Source of the DNA: Pseudomonas putida
GTDB lineage: Bacteria; Pseudomonadota; Gammaproteobacteria; Pseudomonadales; Pseudomonadaceae
DNA: 64,000 nucleotides
NCBI RefSeq assembly: GCF_003228315.1
Contig: NZ_CP029693.1
Location: 4,639,501 to 4,703,500 of the forward strand
Direction: 5' to 3'
This document shows, one piece after another, positions 7,306 through 13,281 of the stretch. How positions within the stretch are numbered: the first letter of the stretch is position 1; the number at the start of each line of letters is the position of its first letter. Under the pieces are notes generated by a model. It had not been told where the DNA came from, searched no databases, and saw only the letters and a program-made list of their open reading frames with translations. A program made the translations under genes and the position numbers.

Positions 7306-7366
7306 TCGCGAGCAGGCTCGCTCCCACATGGGAACGCGATACCTGTAGGAGCGAGCCTGCTCGCGA
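7306..7366. repeat. Two REP arms in tail-to-tail order
   Basis: A reverse-oriented arm (7306-7328, ending CTCCCACA) is followed after 15 bases by a forward arm (7344-7366, beginning TGTAGGAGC). The order is opposite to that in a REPIN, and the two arms differ at CCC/TAC. It lies 15 bp after the LysR gene. Confidence 0.88.
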
Positions 7367-7550
7367 TGGCGTTCGCAAGAACACCAAAAAAACATCAGCC
7401 GGGCACCGGACTACCAGACATTTCAACCCAGGTTGTAGGGCATTTCTGAAATCCCTCCAACAAGCTACAGCTTCTTGCGGCGCTGCCTACACCTACTCCA
7501 GAATCCGCCGGCTTGTGCGCTTCGAGGGCCGTCGCTAACTTGATTCGCGT
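7367..7550. other. Non-coding stretch upstream of the structured leader
   Basis: No convincing gene is seen here. The sequence includes a poly-A tract (ACACCAAAAAAACATC, near 7381) and an imperfect GGTTGTAGGGC...CCCTCCAAC inverted pair near 7432-7461. It probably contains the promoter for the leader and DUF3077 gene, but no clear -35/-10 pair was identified. Confidence 0.4.
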
Positions 7551-7717
7551 CACTGATGGTCAGTGATCGGGTTTAGTAGCCCGCTTTCATATCTAGTGCA
7601 TTGGCGCTCCTGATAGGCAGGTATATCCATACCTGCCCTTGACGGTAGCTGTGCGCAGGGCGCCTTCGGGCGCGCCGGATTGATATGGACCGGTCTACTA
7701 ACCTGCGTACAGCTGCC
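7551..7717 (+). ncRNA. Structured leader RNA candidate with a pseudoknot, upstream of DUF3077 gene
   Basis: Five helices can be drawn. CACTGA/TCAGTG (7551-7556/7560-7565). CGGG/CCCG (7568-7571/7580-7583) enclosing loop TTTAGTAG. GGCAGGTAT/ATACCTGCC (7616-7624/7629-7637). A long 15-pair helix GGTAGCTGTGCGCAG (7644-7658) with CTGCGTACAGCTGCC (7703-7717), containing two G-U pairs. GCGCC/GGCGC around a UUCG tetraloop (7660-7673). The loop TTAGTAG (7573-7579) is exactly complementary to CTACTAA (7695-7701), which lies inside the long helix, so the fold is a pseudoknot. The region ends 57 bases before the DUF3077 start. It resembles no riboswitch known to me; its function is unknown. Confidence 0.6.
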
Positions 7718-7774
7718 ACCCTTCTGATGTTTGGCGATTCGGTGTCGGCTCCCCCTCTTTCAGGACACTGAACC

Positions 7775-7999
7775 ATGACCCATTCGCCCAGCCCGATCTT
7801 CCTCATCGCCCCCGACATCGACAACCACACGCTGCTCGAATACGCCTGCGTCTCCCTGGCTTCCGCCAGTGCCATGGCCAGTGACTTCGCCCGAGACCTG
7901 AAAGGGCCGCAGGGGCAGGTACTGTTGGGGATTCAGCAGTCGATCATGCTCGGAGAACTGGCGGTGAACCGGGCACTGGATAACCTCGATCAGCCATAA
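7775..7999 (+). CDS. DUF3077 family small protein
   Basis: A 74-residue protein of unknown function resembling the Pseudomonas DUF3077 family: acidic N-terminal strand, then a helical core containing LEYACVSLASASAMASDFA and VLLGIQQSIMLGELAVNRALDNL. There is no signal peptide, membrane segment or cysteine cluster. An AGGA ribosome binding site lies about 9 bases before the ATG. It follows the structured leader at 7551-7717, which presumably belongs to its mRNA. From memory, such small genes occur in several copies in fluorescens-group genomes; this was not verified. Confidence 0.75.
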   Translation: MTHSPSPIFLIAPDIDNHTLLEYACVSLASASAMASDFARDLKGPQGQVLLGIQQSIMLGELAVNRALDNLDQP

Positions 8000-8002
8000 C
8001 CT

Positions 8003-8102
8003 TGTAGGAGCGAGCCTGCTCGCGAAAAACGTCCGGGCAACGCGGTCATTCAGGCACCGCGCGTTATCGTTGACGACCATCGCGAGCAGGCTCGCTCCTA
8101 CA
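8003..8102. repeat. REPIN, about 100 bp class
   Basis: Inverted TGTAGGAGCGAGCCTGCTCG arms flank a 54-base interior that includes ATCGTTGACGACCATCGCGA. The interior is shared with the REPINs at 18571 and, inverted, 36002. It begins 3 bp after the DUF3077 stop codon. Confidence 0.92.
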
Positions 8103-8146
8103 GGGGACCGTGGCGAGAATGAGATTTTCGACACACAGATGAACCC

Positions 8147-8169
8147 TGTGGGAGCGGGCTTGCCCGCGA
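8147..8169 (+). repeat. Single REP of a second type
   Basis: TGTGGGAGCGGGCTTGCCCG followed by CGA. The core GCGGGCTTGCCCGC differs from the common GCGAGCCTGCTCGC arm and recurs as a pair at 47994-48055. No partner arm was seen nearby. Confidence 0.8.
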
Positions 8170-8333: not shown

Positions 8334-9560
8334 TTACGCCCAACGCTTGAAGATCAGCGACGTATTCACCCCGCCAAACGCAAAATTATTGTTCATCACG
8401 AACTGATGACTCATCTGCCGGAACTCGCCGCGCAGATAATCGAGCTTGCCGCAGTTGGGGTCGACTTCGTCGAGGTTGAGGGTGTGCACGTACAGGTCGC
8501 GGTTGAGCATTTCGATGCTGAACCAGGACTCCAGTGCACCACAGGCGCCGAGGGTATGGCCGAGGAAACTTTTTTGCGAACTGATGGGCATGTGTTCGCC
8601 GAACAGGCTGCTGGTGGCCAGGGTTTCGGCGATGTCGCCCTGTTCGGTGGCGGTGCCGTGGCCGTTGACGTAGCCGATGGCCGATGGCGCAAGGCCGGCG
8701 TCTTCCAGGGCCAGTTCCATGGCCCGGCGCATGGTGACCTGCTCGGGGCGGGTGGTGTGCTGGCCGTCGGCATTGCTGCCGAAGCCGACGATTTCCGCGT
8801 GGATGCGCGCACCTCGTGCCAGGGCGTGTTCCAGTTCTTCCAGCACCAGCATGCCGGCGCCTTCACCGATCACCAGGCCGTCACGACCGGTGTCGTAGGG
8901 GCGCGGGGACAGGTGCGGGGTGTCGTTTTTCAGGCTGGTGGCGTAGAGCGCATCGAACACCATGGCTTCGGTCGGGCACAGCTCTTCGGCACCGCCAGCG
9001 AGCATCAGCGGCAGGCGACCGAACTTGATCGCCTCGTAGGCATAGCCGATGCCCTGGCTGCCGCTGGTGCAGGCGCTGGAGGTGGGGATCAGGCGACCGG
9101 TGAGGCCGAAGAAGATGCTGATATTGGCCGCCGTGGTGTGCGGCATCATGCGCACGTAGGAGTTGGCGTTCAGGCCTTCAGCCACCGAGTTGAGCAGCAT
9201 GTTGCCGAACGCCTTGATCTCGTCGGTGCTGCCGGTGGAGGAGCCGCAGGCAACGCCCATGCGCCCGTCCTTGATCATGTCGTCACCCAGCAAGCCTGCG
9301 TCGGCCAACGCCATTTCCGATGCGCCTACAGCCAGCCGCGAAACCCGGCCCATGCTGCGCAGTTGTTTGCGGGTCCAGTGGGCCGGCACCTTGAAGTCAT
9401 CGATGGGCCCGGCCAGGCGAGTGTTGAGTTCGGTGAAGCGATCCCACTCGTCCATCCGGCGGATGCCACTGCGGTTGGCCGCGAAGTGGCCGGCGATGCT
9501 GTCCCAGTCGCTGCCCAGAGAGGTGATGCCGGCCATGCCGGTGACGACCACGCGTTTCAT
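8334..9560 (-). CDS. apeR: Aryl polyene beta-ketoacyl-ACP synthase (FabF-like)
   Basis: A thiolase-fold condensing enzyme of 408 residues, last gene of the aryl polyene operon. The catalytic triad is present: Cys about 164 in TSSACTSGSQ, His in VNGHGTATEQGD, and His in QKSFLGHTLGACGALE. ApeR-type enzymes act as a ketosynthase homodimer in early condensation, as shown for the Xenorhabdus APE system. The ATG at 9560 was preferred to a GTG two codons upstream. It overlaps the ketoreductase stop as TGATG and has GGAGG 9 bases before it. A palindromic repeat follows immediately. Confidence 0.93.
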   Translation of the reverse strand: MKRVVVTGMAGITSLGSDWDSIAGHFAANRSGIRRMDEWDRFTELNTRLAGPIDDFKVPAHWTRKQLRSMGRVSRLAVGASEMALADAGLLGDDMIKDGRMGVACGSSTGSTDEIKAFGNMLLNSVAEGLNANSYVRMMPHTTAANISIFFGLTGRLIPTSSACTSGSQGIGYAYEAIKFGRLPLMLAGGAEELCPTEAMVFDALYATSLKNDTPHLSPRPYDTGRDGLVIGEGAGMLVLEELEHALARGARIHAEIVGFGSNADGQHTTRPEQVTMRRAMELALEDAGLAPSAIGYVNGHGTATEQGDIAETLATSSLFGEHMPISSQKSFLGHTLGACGALESWFSIEMLNRDLYVHTLNLDEVDPNCGKLDYLRGEFRQMSHQFVMNNNFAFGGVNTSLIFKRWA

Positions 9561-10288
9561 CAGCACAGGCCTCCGTTGACGGCCAGCACCTGGCGAGTGA
9601 TGTACGACGCTTCCGCCGACATCAGGAAATTCACCGCGCCGGCCACCTCTTCCGGGGTGCCCATGCGTTGTGCGGGAATCATTTTCATCAGTTCTTCCAC
9701 CGGCACGTTTTCATCGAGCATCGCTGTGTCGATCAGGCCGGGGGCGACACAGTTGACGGTAATCTTGCGTTTGGCCAATTCGGTGGCCAAGGCCTTGGCC
9801 GCGCCGATCAACCCGGCCTTGGAGGCGCTGTAGTTGACCTGGCCACGGTTGCCGATCAGCCCCGACACCGAGGTGATGCAGACAATCCGCCCGGCGGCGC
9901 GACGACGGATCATCGGCATCATCACCGGGTGCAGCACGTTGTAGAAGCCGTCCAGGTTAGTGCGCATCACCACATCCCAATCATCCTCGCTCAGCGCCGG
10001 AAAAGCACCGTCACGCGTCAGGCCGGCGTTGAGTACCACGCCGTAATAGGCGCCGTGGTTTTCCACATCGGCTTCGAGGGCGGCCTTGCAGGCGGCACGG
10101 TCGGACACATCGAACTGCAGGATGCGCGCCTGGCGGCCCAAAGCCTCGATTTCGACTCGAACGGCCTCGGCATCCGCCACGCCGCTGCGGCAATGCAGCA
10201 CGATGTCATGCCCGGCCTGGGCCAGGCGCAGGGCGATGGCGCGGCCGATGCCACGGCTGGAACCGGTGACCAGTACGAATTCAGTCAT
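9560..10288 (-). CDS. apeQ: Aryl polyene 3-ketoacyl-ACP reductase (FabG-like SDR)
   Basis: A 242-residue short-chain dehydrogenase that reduces the beta-keto group after each condensation. LVTGSSRGIGRAIALRLA is the NADP loop, NAGLTRD the structural NAG motif, and SVSGLIGNRGQVNYSASKAG contains the catalytic Ser, Tyr and Lys. The C-terminus ITRQVLAVNGGLC resembles FabG. The start overlaps the dehydratase stop by 4 bases (ATGA). It lies between the dehydratase and the final ketosynthase, matching the O-P-Q-R order known from other APE clusters. Confidence 0.93.
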   Translation of the reverse strand: MTEFVLVTGSSRGIGRAIALRLAQAGHDIVLHCRSGVADAEAVRVEIEALGRQARILQFDVSDRAACKAALEADVENHGAYYGVVLNAGLTRDGAFPALSEDDWDVVMRTNLDGFYNVLHPVMMPMIRRRAAGRIVCITSVSGLIGNRGQVNYSASKAGLIGAAKALATELAKRKITVNCVAPGLIDTAMLDENVPVEELMKMIPAQRMGTPEEVAGAVNFLMSAEASYITRQVLAVNGGLC

Positions 10289-10758
10289 GCCTGCGTTCCT
10301 TGTGAAGTGCCTTGGGGTTCATGGAGATATTGCGTGGCCTGGGGCGGGCGATACACGTTCAGGCGGGCACTGGCGTGAATGCCCGGCCCATGGATGTGGC
10401 ATTCGAAAACCCCCATGCCGTTGTCGTCTTCCAGCGAGCGCAAGCCATGGATGTTCAGCTCGGTGCCGGCGGGGAAACTCTCGACGTTGCACTCGAACTT
10501 GCGGCTGCCGAGCAGGAAGCCCAGTTCCACTTCATCACCGCGCTGGCGCGCATGGCAACCGGCGAAGGCGGCGACGCTCTGGGCCATCAGTTCGATGCCC
10601 ACCCAGGCGGGCAGGCTGCCATCGGGGCGATTGAACAGCCCGGTCGGCTTGACCGTAAGGCCGGTGTGAATCTGCTCCGCGTCGAACGCCAGGATCCGGT
10701 CGATGAGGATCATATCGCCGGCGTGGGGCAGCAGTTCGGCGAGCGGCCAGTCAATCAT
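10285..10758 (-). CDS. apeP: Aryl polyene 3-hydroxyacyl-ACP dehydratase (hotdog fold)
   Basis: A 157-residue hotdog dehydratase that removes water from the 3-hydroxyacyl chain to build the conjugated polyene. The N-terminal LLPHAGDMILIDRIL contains the catalytic His, and PAWVGIELMAQSVAAFAG is the hotdog helix with the acidic residue. In other APE systems ApeP pairs with ApeI; here the ApeI domain is fused to the ligase (22425-24104). The ATG at 10758 overlaps the upstream ketosynthase stop as ATGA and gives the normal family N-terminus. A longer open frame upstream is a shadow. Confidence 0.92.
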   Translation of the reverse strand: MIDWPLAELLPHAGDMILIDRILAFDAEQIHTGLTVKPTGLFNRPDGSLPAWVGIELMAQSVAAFAGCHARQRGDEVELGFLLGSRKFECNVESFPAGTELNIHGLRSLEDDNGMGVFECHIHGPGIHASARLNVYRPPQATQYLHEPQGTSQGTQA

Positions 10759-11951
10759 GGGGCGTCTCCGATAATCAGACTGACGTTGTTGCCACCGAAA
10801 GCGAAGGAATTGCTCATCAGGTAGCGGGGACCAGTGGACGTCAGGCGCGTGGCCGGGGTCACCCATTTCAGGACGGGCAGCTCAGGATCCGACTGGTTGT
10901 CCCAGACATGCGGGGGCAGGGCCTGTTCTCGATTGTCGCTACTGAGGCTCAACCAGCAGAACGCCGCTTCCAGTGCTCCCGCCGCACCGAGAGTGTGGCC
11001 GGTCATGGGTTTGGTGGACGAGCAAAGGACGCCTGCCGGGAACAGCGTGTTGACCGCCGTGCTTTCCATGGCATCGTTGTGCTGCGTAGCGGTGCCGTGC
11101 AGGTTCAGGTAGCTGATCTGTTGCGGTTGCAGCCCGGCGCGGCTCAAGGCCTTGCCCATGGCTTGCAGGGCGCCACGGCCGCTAGGCTCCGGCGCGGAAA
11201 TATGGTGAGCATCGGAGCTGGCGCCGCATCCAAGCAGTGCAATCGGCCGGCCTTCAGCGGGCTGCCGACTCATCAGAAACAGCACCGCCGCTTCGCCGAT
11301 GTTGATGCCATTACGGTTCACCGAAAACGGGTTGCAGCGCTGATCACAGACCGCATCCAGTGCCGAGAAGCCGTTGAGGGTCAGCTTGCACAGGCTGTCG
11401 ACGCCGCCGCACAGCACCACGTCGCATAGGCCCAGGTCGAGCAGGCGCTGGGCACTCATCAGCGCGCGGGCGCTGGAGGTGCAGGCGGTGGAAATCACAT
11501 AGGCCGGCCCGCTCAATTGCAGCCACTCGGCGAGGAAATTCGCCGGCGCACTGAGCTCCTGCTGCTGGTAGTCGTATTCGGCGGAGAATTGACCGGTATT
11601 CAGATAGTGCGCCAGGCCCTGGCTGGCTTCTTCGATGCCCGAGGTGCTGGTGCCCAGGACGACGCCGATCCGCTCGCGGCCATAGGTCTGGATGGCCTGG
11701 TCGATGTCCTCGCGGATTTGCAGCGCGGCTTCCAGCAACAGGCGGTTGTTGCGGGTGTCGTGTCGGGAAAACCCGGCTGGCAGGGCTGCCAGTTCGCCTT
11801 GCACCGAGCCCACGGGCAACGCCCGATCGGGCACCCATCCCGCTTTGCTGCGCATGCCTGAGCAATCGCCGGCAAACAGGTTTCGCGCGACTTCATCCTT
11901 GCCGCGGCCCAGCGAGCAGATCACCCCGAGGGCATTCAAATACGCGCTCAT
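10755..11951 (-). CDS. apeO: Aryl polyene beta-ketoacyl-ACP synthase, elongating
   Basis: The second full ketosynthase of the operon, 398 residues. Cys157 in VISTACTSSARALM and the two His in LHGTATQHND and TKPMTGHTLGAAGALE form a complete active site. In the Xenorhabdus system the ApeO enzyme forms a heterodimer with the ketosynthase-like ApeC, playing the KS-chain length factor role; the equivalent partner here is the gene at 25948-26673. The ATG overlaps the stop of the preceding lipoprotein gene (ATGA). Confidence 0.92.
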   Translation of the reverse strand: MSAYLNALGVICSLGRGKDEVARNLFAGDCSGMRSKAGWVPDRALPVGSVQGELAALPAGFSRHDTRNNRLLLEAALQIREDIDQAIQTYGRERIGVVLGTSTSGIEEASQGLAHYLNTGQFSAEYDYQQQELSAPANFLAEWLQLSGPAYVISTACTSSARALMSAQRLLDLGLCDVVLCGGVDSLCKLTLNGFSALDAVCDQRCNPFSVNRNGINIGEAAVLFLMSRQPAEGRPIALLGCGASSDAHHISAPEPSGRGALQAMGKALSRAGLQPQQISYLNLHGTATQHNDAMESTAVNTLFPAGVLCSSTKPMTGHTLGAAGALEAAFCWLSLSSDNREQALPPHVWDNQSDPELPVLKWVTPATRLTSTGPRYLMSNSFAFGGNNVSLIIGDAP

Positions 11952-12556
11952 GGCGTCTCTCCGCTCAGCGGCGTGACGTGGTATTTCGGGCCTTTGGGCA
12001 GATTCAATTCAAAGTTCATCGATTGTGAATAACGCACATCCCAGCGCTCCGGCAGGGAGCGCAGGTCGCCATGTTGCCAGGCGAGCGGGTAGTTAACGGT
12101 CAGCTCGTCCTTGGGGGTCAACGCAAACAGCAGCGCGGCGAACAGCTCCCGGGCTTCCGGATTGGGCGGCAGCAAGCCATCGGCCTGCCACTGGCGATCC
12201 TCGAGCTTTTGCCGGGCCTGGGGAATGCCCAGCAGGTCCATCATCGACCAGCGAACGGCCGGGCCCTCCTGCTGGATCACCAGCACCCAGTCCTGGCGCT
12301 GTTCGTCTTGCAGGCGTTCGATGTGCAGTTGCAGGGGGAGCGGCAGCGTCGGCGTATTTTCGGGCAGCGGTGCGCGGCTGGAGCAGGCGCTCAACAGCAG
12401 AATCACGCAAAGCAAAAGAACACCCATGACCCCTGTAGGAGCGAGCCTGCTCGCGATGGCGGCCTTGCAGTGGACATACAAGTTGGCTGACCCACCGCTA
12501 TCGCGAGCAGGCTCGCTCCTACAGGTCGGGTATTTCAAGGAGCCGAATGTGAACAT
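11948..12556 (-). CDS. DUF3261-like outer membrane lipoprotein of the APE operon, 5' end interrupted by a REPIN
   Basis: The mature part follows MGVLLLCVILLLSACSS, a lipobox signal (LSAC), so the protein is exported and lipidated. It resembles the DUF3261 lipoproteins found in APE clusters (ApeN position) and probably helps lipid or pigment transfer at the envelope. Two starts are possible. ATG 12556 overlaps the methyltransferase stop as TGATG and has AAGG 7 bases upstream, but reads through the REPIN at 12432-12525 and adds 43 residues. ATG 12427 gives a 159-residue protein with a short signal peptide lacking basic residues and only a weak ribosome site. The longer start is given because of the coupling signals. 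Confidence 0.72.
   Translation of the reverse strand: MFTFGSLKYPTCRSEPARDSGGSANLYVHCKAAIASRLAPTGVMGVLLLCVILLLSACSSRAPLPENTPTLPLPLQLHIERLQDEQRQDWVLVIQQEGPAVRWSMMDLLGIPQARQKLEDRQWQADGLLPPNPEARELFAALLFALTPKDELTVNYPLAWQHGDLRSLPERWDVRYSQSMNFELNLPKGPKYHVTPLSGETP
12432..12525. repeat. REPIN, about 94 bp, within the 5' end of the APE lipoprotein gene
   Basis: Arms CCTGTAGGAGCGAGCC and the complement flank about 45 bases. It lies between the coupled ATG at 12556 and the lipoprotein signal sequence at 12427, and is open in the lipoprotein frame. Confidence 0.92.
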
Positions 12557-13281
12557 CAAACAACACCTTCAAGAGGCTTGCGCGCCACCACATTGACCAG
12601 CGTCTCTTCCCGCTGGCCAAAGGGTTTGGGCTTGCACACACCCAACAGTTCCAGCAGGCCGAAATCTGTGGCACGGCTCCACCACAGGTAGGGATAAGAC
12701 ACGTTCTGCGGGCCGAATTCGAAACCCTGTTGGCGAATCATCTCCAGGTACTGCGCCGCGCTTTTTTGCACCTGCATCGGGTGCCTGAACAGCCAGCGAA
12801 TTACCCAGGTATCAATGTAGGCCTCGGTGGATTCGGCGAACAGCAGATAGCCGCCCGGCTTGAGCACGCGATAGAACTCCGCCAGCGCTTTTTCCTGCTC
12901 CACCAGATGATGGAAGGTCTGGTGACAGAACAGCAGGTCGACACTGGCGTCGGCGATTTTCAGGTTCGCGCAGTCGCTGTCGATCAACTCCACCGCCATA
13001 CCCAGATTGACCGCTTCTTCGCGGCTGCGTTGCAGGCTCTGCGGGTCGGCATCCACGCCGATCAGACGGCCGGGCATGAAGGCCTGGCGCAGGTACTTGA
13101 AGGACTTGCCCTGACCACATCCGGCATCCAGCAACAACGGTTGGCTCGGCGGGGCTTCGCTGAACAGGCCGCGCAAATCCTCGATCGCCACGCGCAGCAC
13201 ATAGTGCTGCCAGGTGCGGCTGCGCAGGAACCACAGACCGAAGCGGGTCTCTTCGACGTAGTTGTCGCTCGAATAGGTCAT
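12556..13281 (-). CDS. SAM-dependent methyltransferase of the APE operon
   Basis: A 241-residue class I methyltransferase. LLLDAGCGQGKSFKYLRQ is the SAM-binding motif I, GVDADPQSL motif II, and DLLFCHQTFHHLVEQEKALAEFYRVLKPGGYLLFAES covers motifs for the later strands. It probably methylates the aryl head group, as reported for many APE and xanthomonadin-type pigments, though the acceptor cannot be read from sequence. The start overlaps the flavoenzyme stop by 4 bases, and its own stop overlaps the lipoprotein start. Confidence 0.87.
   Translation of the reverse strand: MTYSSDNYVEETRFGLWFLRSRTWQHYVLRVAIEDLRGLFSEAPPSQPLLLDAGCGQGKSFKYLRQAFMPGRLIGVDADPQSLQRSREEAVNLGMAVELIDSDCANLKIADASVDLLFCHQTFHHLVEQEKALAEFYRVLKPGGYLLFAESTEAYIDTWVIRWLFRHPMQVQKSAAQYLEMIRQQGFEFGPQNVSYPYLWWSRATDFGLLELLGVCKPKPFGQREETLVNVVARKPLEGVV

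Follow-up and report, generated by a model that had tools for sequence, protein, structure and literature searches.

Comparison of leaders points to a chromosomal C4 antisense RNA in Pseudomonas putida that kept its upstream target after losing the one at its gene

The structured leader of a small gene in a 64-kb stretch of the Pseudomonas putida chromosome (the whole stretch analysed, hereafter the window) is, with near certainty, a chromosomal copy of the C4 antisense RNA of phage immunity switches. By comparison with related leaders, it was shown that the match between this C4 and its upstream target element, a1b1, has been kept through sequence changes after the match at the gene, a2b2, was lost. 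Because a2b2 no longer fits and the a1b1 match is retained in the window clade, the C4 is here considered most likely to act on its own 5′ leader, where pairing with a1b1 would attenuate or refold the transcript (probability of about 0.55).

The C4 model (RF01695) was the only Rfam family matched above its cut-off in the window, and it was covered in full (model positions 1-87), which ruled out a riboswitch or a new RNA class. An earlier note, made from the sequence alone, had taken the leader to be of an unfamiliar kind; in fact it is the C4 antisense RNA of Rfam, with a target element resembling a1b1 ahead of it. The module comprises the following elements, all on the + strand:

7513..7541, +, promoter-like TTGTGC-N17-TAACTT ahead of the leader (from sequence)
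7536..7593, +, target element resembling c4-a1b1, made up of two hairpins (7550-7566 and 7568-7583) followed by b1
7550-7556/7560-7566, +, hairpin H1 (from sequence)
7568-7571/7580-7583, +, hairpin H2, CGGG with CCCG, loop TTTAGTAG (from sequence)
7573..7579, +, a1 (TTAGTAG), in the loop of the second hairpin, pairs with a′
7586..7593, +, b1 (TTCATATC), pairs with b′
7616..7637, +, hairpin with a perfect 9-bp stem, lying between b1 and C4 and not followed by a T-run (from sequence)
7638..7723, +, C4 antisense RNA, RF01695, 76.6 bits (cut-off 45), E 3.2e-13
7644-7659/7702-7717, +, C4 stem P1
7660-7673, +, C4 stem P2, the UUCG hairpin
7674-7694, +, C4 stem P3
7682..7689, +, b′ (GATATGGA), loop of P3
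7695..7701, +, a′ (CTACTAA)
7729..7739, +, a2 site, degenerate, with no fit of GTTTGGCGATT to a′ (fit score 8)
7759..7772, +, small hairpin TTCAG-GACA-CTGAA holding the Shine-Dalgarno AGGA, at the expected place of b2 (from sequence)
7775..7999, +, 74-aa DUF6124 protein, predicted two-helix hairpin (PF19619, E 4.9e-21)

In a permissive search of 7500-8100, the upstream element scored 28.6 bits with c4-a1b1 (RF03163, at 7536-7587), below the gathering score of 46.7, and 17.9 bits with isrK (RF01394, at 7549-7626), below the cut-off of 50. Nevertheless, both a1 and b1 are complementary to loops of the linked C4, the property that characterizes c4-a1b1, and the order at the locus is a1b1, C4 and then the gene. 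Both hexamers of the promoter-like sequence and their spacing recur with small changes in 12 aligned leaders, and a looser version of the pattern lies upstream in 65 of 118 C4 loci, a count obtained without a shuffle control; a consensus scanner called no sigma-70 site at 7513..7541 at its threshold. The transcript would start near 7549.

All helices described in the earlier note are present in the leader, at the positions it gave: the perfect 9-bp stem (7616-7624/7629-7637), the UUCG hairpin (7660-7664/7669-7673) and the 15-pair helix with exactly two G-U pairs (7644-7658/7703-7717), which extends to a 16th pair (7659/7702). The loop TTAGTAG (7573-7579) is, as claimed, exactly complementary to CTACTAA (7695-7701). 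The pseudoknot drawn from it stands only in part: the complementarity is real, but it represents the a′ loop of C4 facing its a1 target, and this antisense/target pairing could operate in cis or in trans. A second loop contact, between CATATC of b1 (7588-7593) and GATATG of b′ (7682-7687), had been overlooked. The view that such order is unlikely by chance was borne out, since the + strand of 7540-7780 folds at −105.3 kcal/mol (z −4.7), a value reached by 0 of 200 dinucleotide shuffles; the − strand of the same region also folds well (z −3.3, again 0 of 200 as good).

Conservation of the fold was assessed in 12 related leaders, in which 97.8% of cells were paired, versus 30.9-43.9% when partners were slid by 1-3 columns. 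The stem P1 was paired in 99.5% of cells and P2 and P3 in 100%, with P3 uninformative either way because it is invariant in this set. The a1/a′ helix was likewise paired in 100% of cells, with both sides changed at 2 of its 7 pairs. In one of the five measures used, the number of further pair types (16) was not above that of shuffles (16.1). The strands of the 9-bp hairpin, GGCAGGTA and TACCTGCC, are kept in the eight window-type leaders and are less perfect in the four leaders of a second clade defined below. A conserved structured RNA, as originally proposed, is thus upheld by helices and loop complementarity that are kept in relatives, with partly co-varying loop pairing. The earlier note had regarded a lack of homologues elsewhere, or of covariation, as evidence against it, and neither was encountered; its statement that similar leaders stand ahead of small genes elsewhere was confirmed for Pseudomonas by the genus scan and by the related leaders. 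For its alternative, a recombination or structured-DNA element, these RNA-centred comparisons brought no support.

The gene behind the C4 had been assigned to DUF3077. This proved mistaken, since the 74-aa protein belongs to DUF6124 and had no other Pfam family at E ≤ 1; DUF3077 was found instead behind another C4, at locus L018, whose protein also resembles DUF6124 weakly (E 0.041, below the cut-off). Compared with five relatives over 65 codons, the DUF6124 gene showed a dN/dS of 0.06-0.11 with a dS of 0.45-0.99, indicating that it is under purifying selection. The AlphaFold2 model of the protein (mean pLDDT 88.7) contains helices at 17-41 and 45-71. A PDB fold search gave nothing at E ≤ 0.001, the best hits being ferritin-like helical hairpins (E 0.27); NCBIfam had no match for the DUF6124 protein, PADLOC had none for the three proteins submitted, and in PHROGs (E ≤ 1) the window protein had no match and the four proteins submitted gave one weak match (E 0.31). 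No mention of DUF6124 was retrieved by searching the literature within reach, to which most subscription papers and supplements did not belong. The link with C4 also offers a starting point for work on DUF6124 and DUF3077, both small proteins of unknown function.

The window module is one member of a large family. The source genome (6.85 Mb, one contig) carries 8 C4s, 9 a1b1 matches (3 of them at cut-off) and 8 DUF6124 matches; an a1b1 match lies directly upstream of all 8 C4s, and DUF6124 follows 6 of the 8, one being a partial match. A further a1b1-like leader (L009, G000:C1:4981773-4981826, − strand; 39.3 bits, below cut-off) was observed directly ahead of the best-scoring DUF6124 gene of this genome, with no C4 match between them, and perhaps represents a further step of loss. 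Across Pseudomonas, C4 matches at E ≤ 0.001 were found in 54 of 59 genomes and above cut-off in 53 of 59, at 0 to 54 copies per genome, and the richest genome, G049, reached 55 matches on a fuller scan, 52 of them above cut-off. Order-wide, with 14 candidates scored per genome, matches occurred in 44 of 293 genomes; outside Pseudomonas, under the same limit of 14 candidates, genomes of the same family had 1 to 13 copies and those beyond the family 1 to 6. Although C4 is a textbook phage RNA, in Pseudomonas it exists as a chromosomal family of many copies, a single genome giving as many as 55 matches.

In G049, DUF6124 lies within 700 bases on the same strand behind 35 of the 55 C4s, where chance would give 0.11; conversely, of 40 DUF6124 genes considered out of 41, 35 have such a C4. 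Judged by a DUF6124 profile built for this analysis, the gene stands behind C4 in 13 of 46 diverse loci of the genus and in 0 of 14 loci outside it. Ten other proteins behind C4s comprised DUF3077 (one), Bro-N (three) and six without a Pfam match above cut-off; the Bro-N proteins, of antirepressor type, stand behind the C4s L021, L050 and L124. By eye, proteins of about 90-110 aa behind L004, L008, L029, L058, L065 and L082 look similar to one another, and those of L004, L029, L058 and L065 gave no Pfam match above cut-off. In G049, C4-DUF6124 modules also occur as neighbours at two places, spaced by about 1 kb and 2.4 kb (G049:C1:1293410-1294479 and 3061828-3064327), and these pairs may be tandem duplications.

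The pairing between C4 loops and their targets was evaluated over 118 loci, namely all 8 of the source genome, 50 of the 55 in G049 (the five weakest being left out) and the best C4 of each of 60 other genomes, 46 within the genus and 14 outside it; these 60 diverse loci lean towards the Rfam type because the best-scoring C4 per genome was taken. Fit scores were computed for the loops of each C4 with the flanking stretches, upstream and downstream, of its own locus and of every other one. A best-placement search of this kind inflates single fits, and the control consisted of cognate versus non-cognate comparisons with permutations. Compared with 10000 permutations, the cognate means of the 118 loci gave z values of 23 for a′-a1, 25 for a′-a2, 23 for b′-b1 and 33 for b′-b2; with the 8 own-genome loci alone, z was 3.2-4.4 and three of the four contacts were exceeded by some permutations. 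Over the whole set, C4 loops thus match the a1, b1, a2 and b2 of their own locus far better than those found elsewhere. At the best upstream placement of the 7-base a′, Watson-Crick pairs were formed in 110 to 118 of the 118 loci per position; position 3 shows all four pair types and is paired in every one of the 118 loci. Fewer than 5% of the foreign loops of different sequence were as good in 83 of the 118 loci for a1, 95 for a2, 52 for b1 and 90 for b2, b1 being the least specific contact because foreign loops were beaten in only 52 loci.

Within a single genome, the addresses are largely distinct. The 50 loci sampled in G049 have 50 different b′ loops and 34 different a′ loops, and the own C4 was the single best fit to a2b2 in 43 of 50 and to a1b1 in 29 of 50, so that the separation of addresses, by simple scoring, is good though incomplete. 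Among the 88 loci for which a start was called and b2 fits at 15 or more, the Shine-Dalgarno region is covered by b2 in 74; the start-codon rule was crude, leaving 11 of 118 loci without a call and making some wrong calls. The matching of b2, together with its position over the Shine-Dalgarno sequence, supports a P1-like model for most loci, in which C4 could prevent initiation at the gene behind it. The set as a whole is a natural collection of matched pairs with which to ask what number of antisense switches of one design can be present side by side.

The window locus departs from this pattern. Its fits are 16 for a1 and 16.5 for b1, and 8 for a2 and 11 for b2, and it is the only one of the 118 loci with an a2 fit below 14; one other locus, L071, has an a1 fit below 14. 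The P1/P7-type arrangement, in which a2 and b2 are complementary to C4 and b2 lies at the ribosome-binding site, was not found here. In the expected place of b2 stands the small Shine-Dalgarno hairpin (fold of 7749-7780, −4.6 kcal/mol), which by eye can be drawn in all eight window-type leaders, its stem being changed yet paired in L129 and having 4 pairs in L159, L160 and L161. Another C4 of the source genome, L008, was considered as a controller of the window gene and rejected, as its a′ fits the a2 place (18) and its b′ does not fit (8.5); the former is taken as chance because b′ is unfit and because window-type relatives lack that a2 sequence.

It was further established that two kinds of leader occur at one chromosomal site, next to a LysR gene, a FabF-like gene or both. 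Clade I comprises the window, L128 and L157-L161, together with L129, which is similar and by its flanks lies at another site, and clade II comprises L162, L163, L165 and L180. In the eight clade I leaders, b′-b1 scored 17.3 versus 9.7 for non-cognate pairs, with 4 of 40320 permutations as good, and a′-a1 scored 16.3 versus 14.6, the best possible value, with 1440 of 40320 as good, a limit set by there being only two kinds of a′ in the clade. These permutations do not represent independent events because the leaders share descent. Across the same leaders, b1 and b′ co-vary and a1 and a′ stay matched. Downstream, the clade I leaders were at chance (b′ 11.4 versus 12.3; a′ 9.0 versus 9.2), while in the four clade II leaders b′ against the downstream stretch scored 21.3 versus 13.8, with 1 of 24 permutations as good. 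A C4 scan of 46 retrieved loci, limited to the + strand, found C4 in 34. In a set of 37 C4s, which takes in the window and overlaps the eight and four leaders above, an a2 fit below 14 was seen in 9, namely the window, L128, L157-L161 and the similar loci L166 and L168, and the other 28 fit. In the aligned leaders L158-L160 the a2 stretch is missing altogether. Consequently, evolution has separated the two C4 targets in the window clade, which keeps a1b1 and drops a2b2, so that the role of a1b1 becomes directly testable.

The action on the own leader could proceed as follows. A single transcript starting near 7549 would carry a1b1, C4 and then the DUF6124 gene, and RNase P would probably cut C4 out at GGU 7644, as for phage C4; a GGT stands at 7644-7646, the start of P1. 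Elsewhere in the family a′ and b′ match a2 and b2, the latter usually over the Shine-Dalgarno sequence, which would block translation. At the window locus, the free or nascent C4 would instead pair with a1b1, and the transcript could be attenuated or refolded before the gene is expressed. The opened a1b1 and C4 strands alone pair at −27.3 kcal/mol, and nested co-folding of a1b1 with C4 gained −2.1 kcal/mol, with 103 of 200 shuffles as good, and so showed no preference, by a method blind to loop-loop contacts. Terminator-like hairpins between b1 and C4 occur in 28 of the 118 loci, compared with 3.9 in mononucleotide shuffles, and as regards attenuation the window is not among these 28. Two pattern scans, to which Rho-dependent ends are invisible, found no IsrK-type terminator of its own between b1 and C4, and the only terminator-like site at 7400-8150 was the second hairpin itself (1 found, 0.4 expected). 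With no terminator visible, attenuation would have to rely on Rho or on some other signal.

Attenuation or refolding of the own leader is favoured over three other explanations, which follow in descending order of probability. The C4 could repress other mRNAs in trans, with a short a1b1 RNA titrating it like a sponge. The sub-threshold resemblance of a1b1 to isrK (17.9 bits) points in this direction, as do the 28 loci with terminator-like hairpins and the short IsrK of Gifsy-1, which is reported to act in trans on its own mRNA (PMC4825925). However, the window locus lies outside those 28 loci and the eight leaders of its type all differ in their b′ loops, contrary to what a conserved trans target would require, and such titration is considered unlikely. 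Alternatively, the pairing could be purely cis, giving a stable folded leader, like the pseudoknot of the earlier note, that protects or times the mRNA without any free C4. Both loop contacts indeed fall inside a single predicted transcript and persist in relatives; even so, this explanation appears quite improbable, since the C4 model is matched in full (1-87), as would be expected for an RNA made as a unit, and since the related C4 RNAs of Acinetobacter appear to be processed (PMC5320573).

The least probable explanation is ordinary repression around the DUF6124 ribosome-binding site as in P1/P7, with the poor a2b2 a mere local blemish. It agrees with the a2 fit of at least 14 in 117 of 118 loci and with the frequent placement of b2 over the Shine-Dalgarno region (74 of 88). 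A blemish confined to one locus is, however, contradicted by the chance-level downstream fit of both loops in the eight window-type leaders, by the missing a2 stretch in L158-L160 and by the 9 of 37 C4s with an a2 fit below 14, a group made up entirely of the window, its relatives in clade I and the two loci similar to them, L166 and L168.

Among known systems, the C4 of phages P1 and P7 (RF01695) shares with the window the full-length covariance model, three stems, a UUCG loop, the a′ and b′ loops and a small gene after it. In P1 this gene is icd. The window C4 differs in standing outside phage genes, as far as its examined neighbours go, in preceding a DUF6124 gene and in having an a2b2 that no longer fits. 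The P1 protein Icd is reported to bind FtsZ and thereby stop cell division (PMC11897509). Both C4 and c4-a1b1 are listed by Weinberg et al. 2010 (PMC2864571). Like the window element, c4-a1b1 (RF03163) stands before C4 and has two hairpins, with a C4-complementary a1 in the second loop, whereas the window element, at 28.6 bits, remains under the 46.7 cut-off. In the available part of the study on Acinetobacter baumannii (PMC5320573), the Group 1 sRNAs amount to 21 C4-like RNAs in one genome, apparently processed, and resemble the Pseudomonas family in their number per genome and in the varying a′ loop; their targets are left open there, while most Pseudomonas C4s face their own linked target and gene.

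In the Salmonella IsrK-orf45-anrP region of Gifsy-1, a short, terminator-ended IsrK is reported to act in trans to open its own mRNA (PMC4825925). As at the window locus, a small ORF is preceded there by a short structured leader RNA whose sequence is complementary to the transcript that follows it; unlike the window locus, whose isrK score is only 17.9 bits, Salmonella has the IsrK terminator and an antirepressor gene after it. The stretch behind isrK may itself be C4-like in our own reading, which is helped by the adjacent isrK and C4 entries in tables for Xylella and Burkholderia (PMC12189769, PMC4603805). The CI RNA of phage P4 is reported to pair with seqA upstream and seqC downstream, causing early termination (PMC4825925). 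It is a processed antisense RNA whose target precedes it on one transcript, and in this it resembles the window C4; the early termination is reported for P4 only, and the likeness drawn here is one of arrangement. In the literature searched, no account was found of a C4 that keeps a1b1 and loses a2b2, and none of the Pseudomonas C4 family with its genes, most subscription papers and supplements being outside reach.

Taken together, a broader reading can be put forward tentatively, at somewhat less than even odds, namely that Pseudomonas made of the phage C4 switch a genome-wide set of RNA switches with private addresses, numbering dozens in the genomes of some species and mostly guarding one small gene each (DUF6124, DUF3077, Bro-N or unnamed), and that in the window clade one of these changed from blocking translation to attenuating itself, through loss of the mRNA target and retention of the leader target.

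No phage gene was found among the examined neighbours of the window C4, which on the evidence of these neighbours is not part of a phage immunity region controlling an antirepressor. The upstream neighbour of the module is a LysR gene, and the downstream frames are, by eye, FabF-like synthesis genes. A phage-borne element was likewise rejected for the other copies: ten proteins taken from the longest frames beside own-genome C4 loci (nine at seven other loci, the tenth being the window LysR) matched ordinary bacterial Pfam families, including an efflux protein, CsgG, AraC, an ABC transporter permease and LysR, and no phage family. In a phage collection, the protein was found (E ≤ 1) in one record, EU982300, together with a leader match, at the record edge beside prtR; a weaker leader match in the phage PP003922 lies under an annotated gene, and five short matches occur in other phages of the collection. 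On the minus strand at 8334-12559, the reading frames form by eye a run of fatty-acid-synthase-like genes of aryl-polyene type. The module itself is flanked, at 7310-7370 and 8000-8115, by GTAGGAGCGAGCCTGCTCGCGA-like repeat copies in both orientations, recognized by eye and presumably REP-like.
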